In this document: positions 5,241 through 64,000 of the stretch, piece by piece
Layout of the letters: the number at the start of each line of letters is the position of its first letter
Position numbering within the stretch: the first letter of the stretch is position 1
Origin: Arthrobacter sp. MYb227
GTDB taxonomy: Bacteria > Actinomycetota > Actinomycetes > Actinomycetales > Micrococcaceae
Assembly: GCF_002975435.1 (NCBI RefSeq)
Contig: NZ_PCPT01000009.1
Location: forward strand, 1-64,000
Length of the DNA: 64,000 nucleotides
Direction of reading: 5' to 3'
The notes under the pieces: generated by a model
What the model was told of the DNA's origin: nothing
What the model saw: the letters and a program-made list of their open reading frames with translations, nothing else
Database searches by the model: none
Program-made: the position numbers and the translations under genes

Positions 5241-5430
5241 GAGGGTGGCTGACTCCTTGCGTAGAAAGGCTTAAGAAAGTCCGGGGTTACCAACGTTCTA
5301 GGCGCCTGTGGGGCGGGGGTACTTCTTCTCCCGGTTCAATGAGGTGGCCGACGTTGCTCTTCTTTTCTGTGTAAAACCCGAACCGGGGTTCCACACAGGA
5401 AGCATCAGCACCAAAGATTGCTTGCGCGCT

Positions 5431-5524
5431 CTCCATCGTTTCTGGCGGTAGCACCTTGTCCACCGGAGTGTGGAAGGTTGCTGCGGCGTCATAGAACCAG
5501 ATCTCTCGGCCGCTCGGGATGGGG
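5431..5524 (-). promoter_or_regulatory. SAM riboswitch (S-box/SAM-I-like) upstream of metY
   Basis: Read on the minus strand, CCATC/GATGG arms (5518-5522 with 5433-5437) form P1. They enclose the conserved core: GAGCGGCCGAGAGATC, TGACGCCGCAGCAACC, a hairpin, then GGTGCTACCGCCAG. This parallels the S-box core (AGAG, GAGGGA, GAAGC, GCAACC, GGTGCTAA), but P4 looks very short or missing. About 190 nt of leader follows before the metY ATG, including a stem at 5367-5398, leaving room for an expression platform. Confidence 0.85.
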
Positions 5525-5655
5525 TCTATGCACCATTGTGGCAAGAAAACAGCAAGTAGCCAAAGAATAAGTGCTTAGGTTGCGTTAGATGGACATTGAA
5601 TCGAAGAATCTGCACCAAAATCCCTGGTGGATTTTGCCCAGCTACGCTAGAAGAC

Positions 5656-28694: not shown

Positions 28695-28699
28695 TTGTT

Positions 28700-28790
28700 C
28701 TCCATTGTTCCTGGCTGTAGCACCGTTCCCTTCGCTGAAGGTGGTTGCTGCGGCGTCACTGAGCCAGATCTCTTAGCCGCTCGTAATGGG
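28700..28790 (-). promoter_or_regulatory. SAM riboswitch directly before acs
   Basis: Minus-strand core: GAGCGGCTAAGAGATCTGG, TGACGCCGCAGCAACC, a hairpin and GGTGCTACAGCCAGG, closed by CCATT/AATGG (28786-28790 with 28702-28706). The acs Shine-Dalgarno GGAG (28700-28703) begins inside the closing stem. This points to translational control. The usual GAGAGA reads AAGAGA here, a small variation from the other four copies. Confidence 0.83.
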
Positions 28791-28810
28791 TAAAGTGGAT
28801 GTACTAGGTC

Positions 28811-31571: not shown

Positions 31572-31576
31572 GATCT

Positions 31577-31663
31577 CTCCATCGGTCCTGGCGGTAGCAC
31601 CGGCCTCGAATGAGGTGGTTGCTGCGGCGTCAAAGAGCCAGATCTCTCGGCCGCTCGGGATGG
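31577..31663 (-). promoter_or_regulatory. SAM riboswitch before the sulfonate-type ABC operon
   Basis: Minus-strand core: GAGCGGCCGAGAGATCTGG, TGACGCCGCAGCAACC, hairpin, then GGTGCTACCGCCAGG. The closing stem pairs 31659-31663 with 31579-31583. The GGAG at 31577-31580 serves as Shine-Dalgarno for GTG 31571, so ligand binding would trap it. Confidence 0.87.
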
Positions 31664-32090
31664 GGTATGTCTTAATACAAGTCGATCGGATGACACATAA
31701 TCAAATCCGTCGTAATGTGACGAAAAGTTCGACCGGGCACTCTTTGGGCGTGGTGCAATCAAATAATCTTCGACAAATACCAAGTTTTCTATTCTTCTTT
31801 TTTGGTGGATTACTGATGGTTAAGGCCCAGAGAAATGGAACTCAGGGTTGGGCGCAACTCCCGTCGTTCCGGTTCCTAATGAGCGTTTACTGTCGACGGC
31901 ACGCAAGCCAGATGCCGAGGTAGTTGCCCAGGGGAAGGCTCGAACTTTTGCCCCGCGATTCTTGAACTTCCTGTGTGAACGAACCAGTAAAAGCCTCAAA
32001 AATGCGTCTCAAATCCGTTGTTTTCGTTGCCTTATGTGACTTGTTGGGTTGGCCACTGGGCTAGTTGCCATGTAGAAATGTGACCAACAA
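31664..32090. other. Divergent promoter region between two SAM riboswitches
   Basis: About 430 bp without a credible gene. It must hold the promoters of the minus-strand ABC operon and the plus-strand monooxygenase operon. AT-rich tracts near 31790-31810 are visible. I see no clear operator palindrome and assign no specific -10/-35 pair. Confidence 0.5.
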
Positions 32091-32183
32091 CCATCCAGAG
32101 CGGCCGAGAGATCTGGCTCTATGACGCCGCAGCAACCCCTCCCCTTAATTGGGCGGTAGGTGCTCACGCCAGAACCGATGGAG
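32091..32183 (+). promoter_or_regulatory. SAM riboswitch before the first monooxygenase pair
   Basis: The closing stem pairs CCATC 32091-32095 with GATGG 32177-32181. The core reads GAGCGGCCGAGAGATCTGG, TGACGCCGCAGCAACC, hairpin, then GGTGCTCACGCCAG. GGAG at 32180-32183 is the Shine-Dalgarno of ATG 32192 and overlaps the stem, so control is probably translational. Confidence 0.87.
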
Positions 32184-32191
32184 AAAGAATT

Positions 32192-35773: not shown

Positions 35774-36100
35774 TGCTGTTGCGGAAAGACACGGTGCCTC
35801 CGCGGTATGAACTTGATGATTAGGACCCTCTAATCGTCAAGATTTAGACAATATACAGAATTCTTGTCAATTACGGTGCTGGCTTCCACGGCATTTTCAA
35901 CATGAAGCAACCGCGACGCAAGTCCATGCCGAGTAGGTATGTCATGAAGTGACTTATGACGTTTTGTTACTTGATTCGATGCCCCAAAGCCGCATCTGAG
36001 TCGATTTATTTCACGAACAGGCGTTTTTGATTGGTCATATCGAAGAATCTGCAACACACTTGAATTGTTCGCTATCGATAACTTGTCGAAGTTGAACACA
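35774..36100. other. Intergenic region upstream of the oligopeptide-type ABC operon
   Basis: About 330 bp, AT-richer than its surroundings, without a supportable gene. It must contain the promoter of the riboswitch-led operon. Possible promoter elements near 36059-36083 are not convincing enough to call. Confidence 0.45.
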
Positions 36101-36189
36101 CCATCCAGAGCGACTGAGAGACCTGGCTCGTTGACGTCGCAGCAACCACCTCCGTAATTGGAGACCGGTGCTACCGCCAGGACCGATGG
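36101..36189 (+). promoter_or_regulatory. SAM riboswitch of the oligopeptide-type ABC/monooxygenase operon
   Basis: The closing stem pairs CCATC 36101-36105 with GATGG 36185-36189. The core reads GAGCGACTGAGAGACCTGG, TGACGTCGCAGCAACC, hairpin, then GGTGCTACCGCCAGG. The C-to-T changes in P2 are compensated (GCGAC with GTCGC), supporting a real RNA structure. The first gene starts 112 nt downstream, so the expression platform is separate from the aptamer. Confidence 0.87.
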
Positions 36190-36274
36190 AGATAGCCAAA
36201 CTCTGCGCCGGTCCGCCGACCTATAACCATGTCCGTATGGTTACCGGTTGACTGATCCGCCATGCCGCGGCGTT

Positions 36275-58286: not shown

Positions 58287-60179
58287 CTAGACGCGTGCAC
58301 CGGTATGAATCCCGGCGAAGAATGCGCCGAGTTCCGCGGTGGCATCTAGCGGCAGCACGTTTGCCACGTACTGGTCTGGACGGACCACCACGATCGCGCC
58401 GTCGCGGGAGATCCCGCGCGTCTCGAAGATGTCGGCTCCCGGAACCACTCCGTAGACCTTCTCGTAGTCGGTGAGCTTGAACGGGCCAACCAGTGGCTTG
58501 AAGACCGATGGGACCGCGTTGATGTCGATGTTCTCGTGTGGCTGCTGGTAGATGACCTTCACGTCGAACCAGGCGTCCTCGTCCAGACCTTCGGGCATTG
58601 CCGCAAGCGGGGAATCGGTGGCGGTTTCTAGCCAGCTGCCTAGTTCATCGACCTTTGATCCGGTGCCCGGCGCCGCCGCATCGGCGAAGACATAGATGCG
58701 CCAGCGGCCATCGGCGGTTGCATGGTGGCCCAGCTGCATCGGGTTGGTATCGCAGACCCGTGAGGCCATAGCGGATTTGAAGCGCTTGCCCACGGTGTAG
58801 CCGGATGCGAGTTCCTGGTGGCTTGCCTCGCCGGTGATCAGTGAGGGGGTGTATTCGGTCATGAACCCGGCCGGGAATTCGGCGGTGCGCACGTAGAAGT
58901 CCTCGAGGTCCGAGGGGTTCTCGAACTCTTCGGGCTTCTTGGCCATCATGGTGGACCAGGTCTTGTCGAAATCGATGAGGTTCTTGGCTACTACCTGGCG
59001 TTCGGCCGAGTAGGTCGAAAGCAGTGACTCAGGGCTGCGGCCCTCGAGTACGTGGGCCAGCTTCCACGCGATATTGAAGCCGTCCTGCATTGAAACGTTC
59101 ATGCCCTGACCGGCCTTGGCGCTGTGCGTGTGGCAGGCATCGCCGGTGATGAATACGCGCGGGTTGCGGGTTCCGATGTCTTCGAGCAATACGTCGTCGA
59201 AGCGGTCGGTGAGGCGGTGTCCGACCTCGTAGACGCTGTGCCAGGCAACGTTACGCACATCCAAGGTATACGGCGTAAGGATCTGGTTGGCGTGCGCAAT
59301 GATCTGCTCGATGCTTGTCTGGCGCACCGCGCCGTTGTCATCCTCGGCGACCTCGCCAAGGTCTACATACATGCGGAAGAGGTGTCCACCTTCGCGTGGG
59401 ATGTGCAGGATCGAGCCGCCGTCGTGGGACTGGATAGCGCACTTGAGGCGGATGTCCGGGAAATCTGTGGAGGCAACGACGTCCATGACACCCCAAGCGT
59501 GGTTTGCCTTGTCGCCGGCCATGGTGGCTCCAATGGCGGTGCGGACCTTGGAGCGGGCCCCGTCGCAGCCGATCACGTATTTGGCGTGCACGATCTTTTC
59601 GGTGCCGGCATCTTCGCCGGCGCTGCGCACCAAGGTGACCTTGACCGGGTAGTCGCCTTCCTCGGTGAGTTCGAGGGTCTGGAAATCCCAGCCATAGTCG
59701 GGAGTCAGGCGAGTCGGGGAGTTGCGTGCGACCTCGGCAAAGTAGTCGAGCACGCGTGCCTGGTTGACGATCAGGTGCGGGAATTCGCTGATGCCGTGCT
59801 CGTCATCGACGGCACGCCCGCCGCGCACAATGTTCTTGGGATTTTCGGTATCCGGGCGCCAGAAGGCCATCTCGGTGATGCGGTAAGCCTCGGCAATGAT
59901 GCGTTCGGCGAAGCCGAAGGCCTGGAAGGTTTCCACGCTGCGGGCCTGAATGCCATCGGCCTGGCCGATTTCCAGGCGTCCATCGCGGCGCTCAACAATG
60001 CGCGTGGTGATGTCCGGGAATTGGGCCAGCTGGGCTGCGGCGAGCATGCCGGCGGGGCCGGAACCGACGATCAGTACGTCGACTTCCTCGGGGAGTTCCT
60101 CCGGGCGGTTGATGCCGACTCCGGCGGCTGGTTTGATACGCGGGTCACCGGATACGTAACCGTGGTGGTGGAACTGCAC
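58287..60179 (-). CDS. FAD-dependent aromatic hydroxylase (phenol 2-monooxygenase / 3-hydroxybenzoate 4-monooxygenase type)
   Basis: A 630-residue class A flavoprotein hydroxylase. FAD motif VLIVGSGPAGMLAAAQL near residue 36, the DG motif CDGARSKVR, GDACHTHSAKAGQGMN (second FAD contact), and a C-terminal thioredoxin-like domain from about residue 450. Length and layout match 3-hydroxybenzoate 4-monooxygenase (MobA, about 640) and phenol hydroxylase; sequence alone does not decide between them. It starts at GTG 60179 with AGGAA eight bases upstream. It is divergent from a glyoxalase-fold gene across tandem IclR-like palindromes. Ring-cleavage genes are not in the window. Confidence 0.85.
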   Translation of the reverse strand: MQFHHHGYVSGDPRIKPAAGVGINRPEELPEEVDVLIVGSGPAGMLAAAQLAQFPDITTRIVERRDGRLEIGQADGIQARSVETFQAFGFAERIIAEAYRITEMAFWRPDTENPKNIVRGGRAVDDEHGISEFPHLIVNQARVLDYFAEVARNSPTRLTPDYGWDFQTLELTEEGDYPVKVTLVRSAGEDAGTEKIVHAKYVIGCDGARSKVRTAIGATMAGDKANHAWGVMDVVASTDFPDIRLKCAIQSHDGGSILHIPREGGHLFRMYVDLGEVAEDDNGAVRQTSIEQIIAHANQILTPYTLDVRNVAWHSVYEVGHRLTDRFDDVLLEDIGTRNPRVFITGDACHTHSAKAGQGMNVSMQDGFNIAWKLAHVLEGRSPESLLSTYSAERQVVAKNLIDFDKTWSTMMAKKPEEFENPSDLEDFYVRTAEFPAGFMTEYTPSLITGEASHQELASGYTVGKRFKSAMASRVCDTNPMQLGHHATADGRWRIYVFADAAAPGTGSKVDELGSWLETATDSPLAAMPEGLDEDAWFDVKVIYQQPHENIDINAVPSVFKPLVGPFKLTDYEKVYGVVPGADIFETRGISRDGAIVVVRPDQYVANVLPLDATAELGAFFAGIHTGARV

Positions 60180-60370: not shown

Positions 60371-60762
60371 ATGAGATTGCATCACGTACAGCTGTCAATG
60401 TCGGCAGGCATGGAAGATCGGGCTCGCACGTTTTACGCCCAGATATTGGGTCTTAGCGAAGTTGAAAAGCCGCTTTCACTGGCCGGCCGCGGGGCTGTTG
60501 GTTCCGCGCCTATGACAGCGGCGTTGTTGTTGCCGAAGTCCATTTAGGTGTTGACCCCGGGTCTGTGCCCAGTAAGAAATCGCACCCGGCCTTCGTATTG
60601 GAATCTGTGGAAGAGCTCGAAGAGTTGGCCGTGAGGATCCAAGCGGGTGGCTTTGAATTTTCCTGGGAGGAACGGCATACCTTTGAGGGATACGAACGGT
60701 TTCATTGTCGAGATCCGTTTGGAAATCGGGTTGAGGTGCTCGTGCCACTTACCGGAGCCTGA
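60371..60762 (+). pseudogene. Glyoxalase/VOC family protein with frameshift
   Basis: A VOC-fold protein of about 130 residues if repaired. The first frame starts at ATG 60371 (GGAGGAAAG upstream) with MRLHHVQLSM and ARTFYAQILGLSEVEKP. It runs out of frame at the GGGG run 60491-60494. One added G restores WFRAYDSG, VAEVHLGVDP and the ending FHCRDPFGNRVEVL, a typical VOC end. Members bind metal and include dioxygenases and glyoxalases. Divergence from the aromatic hydroxylase suggests an accessory role. A homopolymer sequencing error is a real alternative. Confidence 0.75.
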
Positions 60763-60858
60763 CGGCCAGCCCGGGGGATATGAAAACTTCTACGCGTATC
60801 AGGGGGAATAGGAGGGGTGCTTGCACCTTGCATAAATCTTGCTGTAGCGACAGCTGGA

Positions 60859-61010
60859 CTGCTAAAGGAAAACCCTTTTAGCAGCCCCGCCGTATTGCAG
60901 AGTGCTAACGCCTAGCCGAAATACTTCGGCAGCGTGCCCTCGTGAGCTTCGCGCAGATTATCTAGTGCAACGCAGTGACGGGACCGCCATCGGACAGGTC
61001 GTGTGCTGGA
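60859..61010 (-). pseudogene. Diverged, decayed copy of the purL 3' end and terminator
   Basis: Positions 60881-60956 align without gaps to 62336-62411, the end of purL, with 65 of 76 bases identical by hand count. The copy encodes LREAHEGTLPKYFG then TAG (60912-60914), against [14 protein letters not shown] and TAA in purL. Most coding changes are silent. A CTGCTAAA/TTTAGCAG hairpin (60859-60884) holds the place of the purL terminator. Beyond 60956 only fragments match internal purL (AGTGCAACGC and ACAGGTCGTGTGC), so the middle has been lost. The rest of 60763-61115 shows no gene. Confidence 0.82.
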
Positions 61011-61115
61011 GCTATTGCGAGGAGGCTCGAGCGGCAAACGGAGGCCTGTATGAAGAGATATAAGTGAGTATGGGACTTTTCCTTATATTGATGCATATTC
61101 TGTCATAATTGGTCT

Positions 61116-62291
61116 ATGGAGCCCGCACTGAACCCCTATAATCCCGGATCCGGAGTACCTCCACTATTCATGGCTGGTAGGGAATCGGAAATTGACGCAT
61201 TTGATCTTTTGGTTGCTAGGACAAAGCTATCTCGCCATAGTCGGTCGATGATGCTCAGTGGATTACGTGGAGTCGGAAAAACTGTACTGCTCAATAAACT
61301 GCGAGGCATCGCAAGAGCGCATGGGTGGCTGACAATTAAGATTGAGGCTCAGACGGGCGCATCAGCGGCAAAAGATGTGCGAAACACTCTTGCACGAGAA
61401 CTTCAGATAGCTTCTCGCCGGTACGTCCAGCGCTCGAAGGAGCCTAAGTTCAAAAACATGCTTCAAACCGTTTCGTCATTTGGGGCAACCTTCGGCGTTA
61501 CAGGAATTTCTCTTGAGGTGGATATCGATCCGTCCCGTGCTCAAACCGGCATTATGGACATCGATTTAAGAGATGTTATTGAAGATGTAGCTCATGCCAT
61601 GAGATCGATCAGGCAAGGGTTTGTCATTTTTATCGATGAGATGCAAGACCTTGACGAAGAATTGCTTATTGCGCTGGTTACCGCACAGCATCATGCAAGC
61701 CAAGACGAGCTGCCCTTCTTCGTCGTCGGTGCGGGTCTGCCCAACCTTCCTGCACGACTGGCGGACGCAAGAAGTTATGCAGAGCGCCTTTTTGACTATC
61801 GCGTCATCGGAAAGCTCACGAAGGAAGAAACCGAGGAATCCTTTACTATCCCTGCTCGAACGGTTGGGCCTACCTATTCTCAGGAGGCACTGGACAAACT
61901 CGTCAAAGCTTCTGGCGGGTACCCCTACTTCGTCCAGGAATTCGGTAGCGCAATGTGGAACGTAGCGACTGCATATCCATTCCAAAAAGATGATGCAGTA
62001 ACTGCAGTTAACGCTGGTTTAATGAGACTGGACGCGGGATTCTTTCCATCTCGTTGGGACCGTGCCACCCCAAAAGAACGTGAATACATGCTCGCCATGG
62101 CGGAAGATGGGGAAGGCCCGTCGATGACGGGAGAGATTGCAACGCGACTGAAGAGCAGCGCAGCCAGTATAGGCACATATCGGGCCCAGCTTATTGCCAA
62201 GGGCCTCGTTTATTCCCCCGAGCATGGTGAAATAGCGTTTACGGTTCCAGGCATGGCCGACTTCATCCGCAGACAAAACATCGAGAGATGA
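61116..62291 (+). CDS. AAA-type ATPase, stand-alone
   Basis: A 391-residue P-loop ATPase of the ORC/STAND-like group. Walker A GLRGVGKT at 49-56, Walker B VIFIDEMQD with D174 and E175, sensor-like VVGAGLPNLPARL, then a lid with GGYPYFVQEFG. The last 90 residues look like a winged helix (TPKEREYMLAMAEDG...GEIATRLKSSAASIGTYRAQL). CATAAT seven bases before ATG 61116 and no ribosome binding site suggest a leaderless mRNA. Its AT content appears higher than that of neighbours. It lies between two copies of the purL end, so it was probably acquired. The function is unknown; a regulatory, DNA-linked or defence role is possible. Confidence 0.82.
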   Translation: MEPALNPYNPGSGVPPLFMAGRESEIDAFDLLVARTKLSRHSRSMMLSGLRGVGKTVLLNKLRGIARAHGWLTIKIEAQTGASAAKDVRNTLARELQIASRRYVQRSKEPKFKNMLQTVSSFGATFGVTGISLEVDIDPSRAQTGIMDIDLRDVIEDVAHAMRSIRQGFVIFIDEMQDLDEELLIALVTAQHHASQDELPFFVVGAGLPNLPARLADARSYAERLFDYRVIGKLTKEETEESFTIPARTVGPTYSQEALDKLVKASGGYPYFVQEFGSAMWNVATAYPFQKDDAVTAVNAGLMRLDAGFFPSRWDRATPKEREYMLAMAEDGEGPSMTGEIATRLKSSAASIGTYRAQLIAKGLVYSPEHGEIAFTVPGMADFIRRQNIER

Positions 62292-62304
62292 TCACGCTTT
62301 AACG

Positions 62305-62348
62305 AGAGCGGGGCGGCGGAAGGAAAAATCCTTCCGCCGCCCCGCTCT
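62305..62348. terminator. 20-bp perfect terminator between the ATPase gene and purL
   Basis: Arms 62305-62324 and 62329-62348 are exact complements with an AAAA loop. They serve the two convergent genes. The right arm and what follows recur, diverged, near 60881. Confidence 0.9.
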
Positions 62349-62366
62349 ATTACGGAGTACTAACGC

Positions 62367-64000
62367 TTAGCCGAAGTACTTCGGCAGCGTTGCTTCGTGA
62401 GCTTCGCGCAGCTCGGCCAGGTCCAGATCGAACTGGCCCTGAACCTCAAGCGAGGTAGCCGATGCGTCGACAACACCTAGGCGAAGTACCGGGAAGTTGC
62501 GCGCGGTAGCCATGTCGTTGAAGCGAACTTCTTCCGAACGCGGAACAGCAACGATGGCGCGAGCCTGCGACTCGGAGAACAGTGCGGTGAAGGCGTCTAC
62601 GCCGTCACGTGCGCACAGATCATCAAGTGCAACGCGGGCGCCAACGCCATAGCGCAGAGCCATCTCGCCCAGTGCGGCACCCAGGCCACCCTCGGAGAGG
62701 TCGTGTGCCGAGTCGATCATGCCATCGCGTGAGGCGTTGATCAGGATCGCACCCAGGGTCTTCTCTGCTTCCAGATCGACCTTTGGCGGCAGACCGCCAA
62801 GGTGACCACGGAGGTTAGCGAATTCCGAACCATCGAGCTCGTCGAAGGTGGTGCCCAACAGGTAGATGGCCTGGCCATCTGCATCCGCGCGCCAGCCCGA
62901 CGGGGTGCGACGTGCAACATCGTCAAGCTTGCCGAGCATTGCCACAACCGGGGTCGGGTGGATCGGGGTGGTGCCGGTCTGGTTGTACAGCGACACGTTA
63001 CCGCCGGTCACCGGAACGCCGAGCACCATGCAAGCATCCGAGAGACCACGAATGGCCTCTGCCAGCTGCCACATGACATCCGGGTCTTCCGGGGAACCGA
63101 AGTTCAGGCAGTCAGAAACTGCCATCGGGATGGCACCGGAGGTAGCAACGTTGCGGTAGGCCTCGGAGAGAGCCAGCTGCGCGCCGTGGTACGGATCTAG
63201 GTAGGTGTAGCGGCCGTTGGCATCGGTAGCCAGAGCAACGCCCAGACCGGTTGCCTCATCCACACGGATCACACCGGCATCATCCGGGGTTGCAAGTGCG
63301 GTGTTGCCGCCAACATAGCGGTCGTACTGGTTAGTGATCCAGTTCTTGGAGCACAGGTTCGGAGAAGCCATCAGCTCAACCAAAGTGGCCTTGAGCTCTT
63401 CACCGGTGGACGGCAAATTCGCACCAGCGGCTGATGCCTTGAAGGTATCTGCCTGCAGGGCATCCTGCCACTCCGGGCGAGCGTACGGGCGGTCGTAGAC
63501 CGGGCCGTCGTGTGCCACGGTGCGCGGGTCAACATCGACGATGACCTCGCCATCCCACTTGATAACCAGGCGGTTGGTGTCGGTCACCTCGCCGAGCCAC
63601 GAGTATTCAACGGCCCACTTGTCCATGACTGCCTCGAAGGCTGCCACGTTATCCGGGGAAACCACGGCCATCATGCGTTCCTGCGACTCGGACATCAGGA
63701 TTTCGCCCGGGGTCAGGGTCGGATCGCGCAGCAGAACGGACGTCAGCTCGATGTCCATGCCACCGTCACCATTGGAGGCAAGCTCCGAGGTGGCGCAGGA
63801 GATGCCAGCGGCACCGAGGTCCTGGATACCCTCAACGAGGGAACCCTTGAACAGTTCCAGGCAGCACTCGATGAGGATCTTCTCGGCGAACGGGTCGCCG
63901 ACCTGAACTGCCGGACGCTTCGATGGCTTGGAATCGTCGAAGGATTCCGAAGAAAGGATCGAAGCGCCGCCAATGCCGTCGCCACCGGTGCGTGCACCGA
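62367..64000 (-). CDS. purL: Phosphoribosylformylglycinamidine synthase II (PurL), 5' end outside window
   Basis: The last 544 residues of FGAM synthase, which converts FGAR to FGAM with ATP and glutamine-derived ammonia in purine synthesis. Visible marks: [15 protein letters not shown] at the window edge, [18 protein letters not shown], the GGMDIEL segment, [10 protein letters not shown], and in the second half [32 protein letters not shown] and [14 protein letters not shown]. The frame is intact from the edge to TAA at 62367, so the gene is partial only because the window ends. Its 3' end and terminator are duplicated in decayed form 1.45 kb away. Confidence 0.95.

Follow-up and report, generated by a model that had tools for sequence, protein, structure and literature searches.

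An accessory ATPase gene between two purL 3' ends in Arthrobacter sp. MYb227, a probable scar of recombinational gene insertion

In Arthrobacter sp. MYb227, a gene for an AAA+ ATPase lies between two copies of the 3' end of purL, one intact and one worn, and the locus raises the question of how a single gene came to be enclosed in this way. The DNA analysed, called the window here, is a stretch of 64,000 nt (contig NZ_PCPT01000009.1, positions 1 to 64,000). An initial annotation had proposed a cassette insertion at the gene end by homologous or site-specific exchange, with the worn copy coming from a related genome and the purL end as a possible hotspot. The arrangement is probably the scar of a gene insertion by recombination; that the accessory ATPase was inserted at the purL 3' end through homology in purL itself is the explanation preferred here, with moderate confidence.

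The purL repeat and the gene within it

The locus is made up of the following features:

58287..60179, minus strand: gene for a phenol 2-monooxygenase-type flavoprotein, the outer neighbour (NF006144, 1058 bits, cut-off 560)
60371..60762, plus strand: broken glyoxalase/VOC-type gene outside the outer purL copy (two-piece tblastn match; full-length in the relatives G005 and G009; PF00903 on the G005 protein)
60836..60956, minus strand: outer, decayed purL 3' end with a terminator remnant (about 60845-60890), the stop codon (60912-60914) and the last 15 codons (79% over 121 nt to 62291-62411, and shuffles)
60954..61007, minus strand: short remnants of deeper purL, the remainder deleted (gapped alignments, repeat families D2 and D5)
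61050..61109, plus strand: putative ATPase promoter with a degenerate iteron-like stretch (about 61060-61095) and a -10-like CATAAT (61104-61109) (sequence; family-wide periodicity and dyads)
61116..62291, plus strand: AAA_16 ATPase with a C-terminal winged helix, 391 aa (Pfam PF13191; AlphaFold prediction with pLDDT 92.8; structural matches 2qen and 2fna)
62305..62348, no strand: perfect hairpin separating the end of the ATPase gene from that of purL and probably terminating transcription of both genes (inverted repeat with arms of 20 nt, 100% complementarity)
62367..64000, minus strand: intact 3' part of purL, continuing beyond the window (ORF; last 98 residues with 90-96% amino acid identity to the other 14 genomes)

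The direct repeat links 60836-60956 to 62291-62411 (121 nt, 79% identity) at a spacing of 1455 nt, which upholds the diverged purL terminus first described some 1.45 kb from the intact one. Its local alignment score is 112, whereas 300 plain shuffles reach no more than 35, and a chance origin is ruled out by the shuffle controls. A gapped alignment of the two copies, scoring 167.8 (maximum of 200 shuffles, 102.8), takes in inner purL pieces in collinear order (60954-60973 with 62616-62635, and 60986-61007 with 62682-62709). Because these deeper pieces are present in order, the outer copy would formerly have extended about 340 nt into purL, and the alignment confirms, at the level of sequence, that most of its interior has been deleted, as the initial annotation had it. 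Four of the last 15 purL codons differ between the outer and the intact copy and three of these changes are silent, which agrees with the earlier description of the coding changes as mostly silent, though 15 codons are too few to weigh. The outer terminator is diverged and forms an imperfect hairpin, as judged by eye; the inner one has perfect arms of 20 nt.

The foreign look ascribed to the ATPase gene is borne out by its composition, with a GC content of 51.3% and a GC3 of 49% over 61116-62291 compared with 62% and 72% for purL, and GC3 is low in all four genomes that carry the gene intact (0.49-0.60). Between 60180 and 62366, the broken VOC-type gene and the ATPase gene are the only credible genes: no recombinase gene, tyrosine or serine, was found among the ORFs of this interval and no transposase by domain search of it. 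No tRNA was seen in the window, and terminal inverted repeats like those of an insertion sequence or transposon were not found around the ATPase gene. Elsewhere in the 64 kb, five SAM (S-box) riboswitches score above the gathering threshold, at 5430-5525 (-), 28699-28792 (-), 31576-31666 (-), 32088-32184 (+) and 36098-36192 (+).

The purL end across the genus

The site was compared in 15 genomes of the genus, taken to be Paeniglutamicibacter, with the window's genome as G000, P. antarcticus W2 as G001 and P. terrestris as G014, and with G008 and G009 being Arthrobacter sp. Beside the purL end, the ATPase gene is intact in four genomes (G000, G001, G005 and G009), reduced to remnants in two (G010 and G014) and lacking in nine, and the intact proteins of the relatives share 81-82% amino acid identity with that of the window. 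G014 and G008 have a further, more distant copy (64%) elsewhere in the genome. A sensitive search of the 5 kb downstream of purL in the 15 genomes found a second purL end only in G000 and G001, that is, in two of the four intact carriers compared with none of the 11 others (one-sided Fisher test, 0.057). Both second ends flank the ATPase gene, and the other genomes have different genes at the site; at the remnants in G010 and G014 no purL copy was found, the alignment scores lying within the null. The idea of the purL end as a hotspot thus stands in so far as the same ATPase recurs there; varying cargo between purL-end copies is unsupported, with just these two genomes holding a second end.

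A possible purL relic upstream of the G005 ATPase, a 34-nt match (E 9e-4; 0/146 cross pairs at 0.01), was dropped, since G009 (locus L101) is without it, other scoring placed it within the null, and 14 of 203 same-locus controls give weak matches at that threshold; the last of these grounds also led to the discarding of further weak flank repeats. Further afield, none of 26 ATPase loci with 1.5-kb flanks (L071-L096, three of them further copies from within the genus) adjoins purL, and in a set of 80 loci the only purL-adjacent ones are L101 and L102, which are those of G009 and G001. The last 98 residues of PurL are matched in 292 of 295 genomes, and twice in G001, G018, G030 and G048, by a search that misses the window's worn copy. 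The double matches in G018, G030 and G048 may each represent one match in two pieces or a duplication of the purL end.

On the outer side, the neighbours in the window, the phenol monooxygenase and VOC-type genes, match those of G005 and G009, in both of which the VOC-type gene is whole; in the window it is broken by a frameshift. Among the purL stretches retrieved from the 15 genomes, most contain the monooxygenase gene, and those of G001, G002 and G004 lack it.

The most informative comparison is that of G001 with G004. P. antarcticus has the same ATPase sandwich at the same place with a fresher purL copy: the outer copy comprises roughly 240 nt from the end of purL, broken by a single gap of 18 nt, its terminator is apparently intact, its frame is open across the last 71 codons, and 204 of 221 compared sites are the same as in its own intact end. 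This outer copy adjoins a gene with a RibD_C domain, and the same gene adjoins the sole purL end of G004, a genome that groups with G000 and G001 (100/100) in the species tree built from gyrB, parE and rpoB (rpoB missing for G011). The two genomes are 83% identical in nucleotides over the RibD_C stretch (580/696 columns) and 79% over the 3' region (92/116), and the ATPase-side terminator of G001 matches the G004 terminator in 40 of 77 columns (52%). Since the neighbouring gene and the terminator are shared with the single purL end of G004, the outer copy of G001 represents the resident context. One ATPase gene is thus found between two purL ends in two species, with the outer end in its resident context in G001, and the initial annotation, in which the outer copy was the foreign one, probably had the relation reversed.

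In G001, either the added part is the ATPase together with a terminator of its own, or a precise loss of the insert took place in G004 by recombination between the two ends; the same repeats are used in both cases. G004 provides the insert-free state in a relative, with the RibD_C gene, the terminator and purL, though the polarity could be that of a loss. No donor-like purL segment is visible in G001, because at 120-240 nt from the stop its two copies of purL have G001-specific sites in common; such sharing would fit a crossover near the stop, and equally later gene conversion.

Insertion through purL homology or old inheritance

Under the preferred explanation, incoming DNA with the ATPase gene, its terminator and a purL 3' end would have crossed over with the resident purL. 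The purL gene would thereby retain a working 3' end beside the ATPase, and the displaced resident end would be left on the far side, decaying. A linear piece may have entered by homology-facilitated illegitimate recombination, or a circle by a single crossover. We infer that the direction was insertion, instead of precise excision in G004, and the window would have arisen as G001 did. Homology-facilitated illegitimate recombination is described for Acinetobacter, Pseudomonas stutzeri and Streptococcus pneumoniae (PMC2884548) and for conjugation in E. coli (PMC3240628). In this process, foreign DNA is joined by homology on one side only and a gene is added beside the resident one, the homology in the present case being purL; the present case differs in being known from sequence, with a crossover inside purL that has no assigned position. 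At one border of the insert homology is evident, purL lying directly at the ATPase stop and again on the far side. Towards the other border, similarity to purL tapers off some 75-110 nt upstream of the ATPase start, with no clear junction.

Alternatively, the ATPase and a duplicated purL end could have been present early in the genus and been lost or worn in most species, an old vertical state that we regard as rather unlikely. An early presence followed by losses would account for the remnants in G010 and G014, and the species tree pairs G000 with G001 and G005 with G009. The divergence of the ATPase is, moreover, in line with that of ordinary genes: G000 and G001 are alike at 60 of 171 4-fold sites in the ATPase (35%) and at 52 of 143 in an ordinary neighbour gene (36%), and separate arrivals of the ATPase in these two genomes were dropped as a candidate for this reason. 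Vertical descent is, however, difficult to reconcile with a copy that is fresh in G001 (71 open codons, 204/221 sites) and mostly deleted in the window, with outer neighbours in G001 that are those of G004 and unlike those of G000, G005 and G009, and with the need for about five or six separate losses, as counted on a partly unresolved tree. A layout common to relatives by vertical inheritance, which would speak against insertion, is in this way excluded only partly.

Between insertion and vertical inheritance, trees of purL itself do not settle the matter. The 5' part of purL in G000, past window position 63000, groups with G003 (91/94) and apart from the sister species G001 and G004, which points to an exchange of this locus between lineages. 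Approximately unbiased (AU) tests on the final 500 nt of purL do not clearly reject the species groupings (p 0.161 for G005-G006-G008-G009 and 0.0525 for G000-G003), and the four carriers as one clade are slightly rejected (p 0.0499), so an imported purL end common to the carriers is not supported. Between G005 and G009, the ATPase is alike at 202 of 216 4-fold sites (93.5%), compared with 392/450 in purL (87.1%, p 0.012), 149/184 in the neighbour gene q5 (81.0%, p 2e-4) and 253/323 in the monooxygenase gene (78.3%, p 9e-7), which suggests a recent exchange of the ATPase between these two genomes, with core genes about level with it (991/1082, 91.6%).

The ATPase family, its flanks and its promoters

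A further, improbable reading is that the ATPase gene and its promoter element together are mobile in their own right, inserting at gene borders with long target duplications. At a threshold of E 1e-10, flank repeats were found at five of 202 ATPase loci (L001, L102, L115, L264 and L322) compared with two of 403 same-locus controls (p 0.045); for the three gene-border cases alone (L001, L102 and L115) the difference is not significant (p 0.34). In these three, the repeats do start close behind the ATPase stop, after 5, 28 and 6 nt, respectively, and L115, from Microbacteriaceae, offers a second target: the 5' end of a GntR gene lies on one flank and is repeated directly after the ATPase stop as a copy of 119 nt with 83% identity; an empty L115 site was matched in none of 186 genomes, from a family that may differ from L115's own. 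At L264 (genome G241), a 64-nt palindromic promoter element, of which the genome yielded no other copy, stands on both sides of the gene (97% identical; 32-95 nt before the start and 11-74 nt after the stop), the next gene being a convergent SNO/pdxT-type gene. This would suit a mobile unit, but as a target duplication L264 was rejected, the repeat being the promoter element without a target gene, and so was L322, which by eye resembles dispersed GAGACACGAGC-like repeats. The promoter element of the window occurs just once in its genome, and no nuclease or transposase domain was found. The more specific proposal, that a solitary ORC-like AAA+ gene and an iteron-like operator would form a minimal self-mobilising unit at gene borders, with the ATPase steering recombination and long target duplications on both sides, is likewise hard to credit.

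In a first set scored at E 1e-4, seven of 146 loci were positive compared with none of 60 core-gene loci (one genus, overlapping rpoB pieces among them) and none of 150 cross pairs, and in a second set four of 58 loci had a flank repeat. Inverted flank repeats occur at five of 146 family loci compared with one of 146 cross pairs; in the window, the signal comes from the palindromic stop region of purL aligning with itself. Scars of flank duplication are rare, and nothing demands the ATPase as their cause.

Site-specific exchange, also raised by the initial annotation and considered here as the work of an integrase acting in trans, with the element replacing the end of purL, is very improbable. 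The site is recurrent, one end is kept on each side of the insert and the target gene stays intact, as with the genomic island SGI1 at the 3' end of trmE (PMC8409611), but no integrase gene was found among the ORFs of the interval and no tRNA in the window, the cargo is a single gene and the long repeats differ in extent between the two species. Of that first proposal, the addition of the ATPase at the gene end stands, with homologous exchange as its best explanation.

The ATPase itself belongs to a widespread family and is predicted to have an archaeal-ATPase/ORC-like core with a winged helix. It matches PF13191 (AAA_16) with 56.8 bits against a curated cut-off of 32.6, and the closest structures to its model are the archaeal ATPases PABY2304 (2qen; Z 23.7, 325 residues, 4.8 Å) and SSO1545 (2fna; Z 22.5, 327 residues, 4.4 Å), followed by archaeal ORC proteins. 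Together with the Orc1/Cdc6 initiators, these share the AAA+ core and C-terminal winged helix, although identity is only about 12-16%; no solved structure matched the ATPase by sequence, and the Orc1/Cdc6 model TIGR02928 gives 18.8 bits, far under its curated cut-off of 181.3. Structure searches additionally listed NLR-type, RuvB and TnsC proteins, from which no function was read, and the anti-phage families of PADLOC-DB 2.0.0 gave no convincing match (best E 0.032 over 39 residues). Homologues occur in 106 of 295 genomes of the family (E at most 1e-20), in 114 of 396 of the order (1e-60) and in 118 of 72,556 plasmid records (E 1e-10), and the ATPase family is mostly solitary. No shared partner gene is annotated in four plasmid neighbourhoods inspected. 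The 72 pattern matches in viral contigs included no relative, and the sole 'phage' record is a faecal scaffold of unverified status.

A by-product of the analysis, and its more original one, is the architecture of the family's promoters; no description of an ATPase family with such a conserved architecture was found in the open-licence literature. In the window, a leaderless ATPase transcript is likely, because the -10-like CATAAT ends 6 nt upstream of the ATG. Across 112 promoters retained as dissimilar from 148, the stretch upstream of the start has a 10-bp period (z 20 at lag 10 and 8.6 at lag 20), whereas control stretches have only a 3-base period. Dyad symmetry at 19 or more of 28 positions is found in 21 of the 112 compared with 5 of 112 controls, most centres lying 28-46 nt upstream of the start; in the window itself the dyad is weak (14/28). 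Perfect palindromes were rejected as a rule for the family, since the median palindrome score is 6 in promoters and controls alike, and they mark a minority, scores of at least 10 occurring in 21 of 146 promoters compared with 4 of 146 controls. The strongest palindrome, 12-71 nt before the ATPase start, consists of perfect arms of 28 nt enclosing a loop of 4 nt, with repeated TTCTAA-like half-sites, and is common to L262, L259, L258 and L096, all from one genus (g3), so that it counts once. Archaeal orc1/cdc6 genes often adjoin palindromic binding repeats. The promoter element of the ATPase family is probably an operator, which would be read by an ATPase oligomer through the winged helix, and fold and promoter together suggest that the ATPase is probably a self-regulated, DNA-bound AAA+ protein.

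As a probable insertion, the locus would illustrate from nature, complete with an insert-free relative, how a housekeeping gene can gain a single accessory gene at its end and remain whole. It likewise draws attention to an ATPase family that is widespread and mostly solitary, with a conserved promoter architecture, and that lends itself to direct testing.
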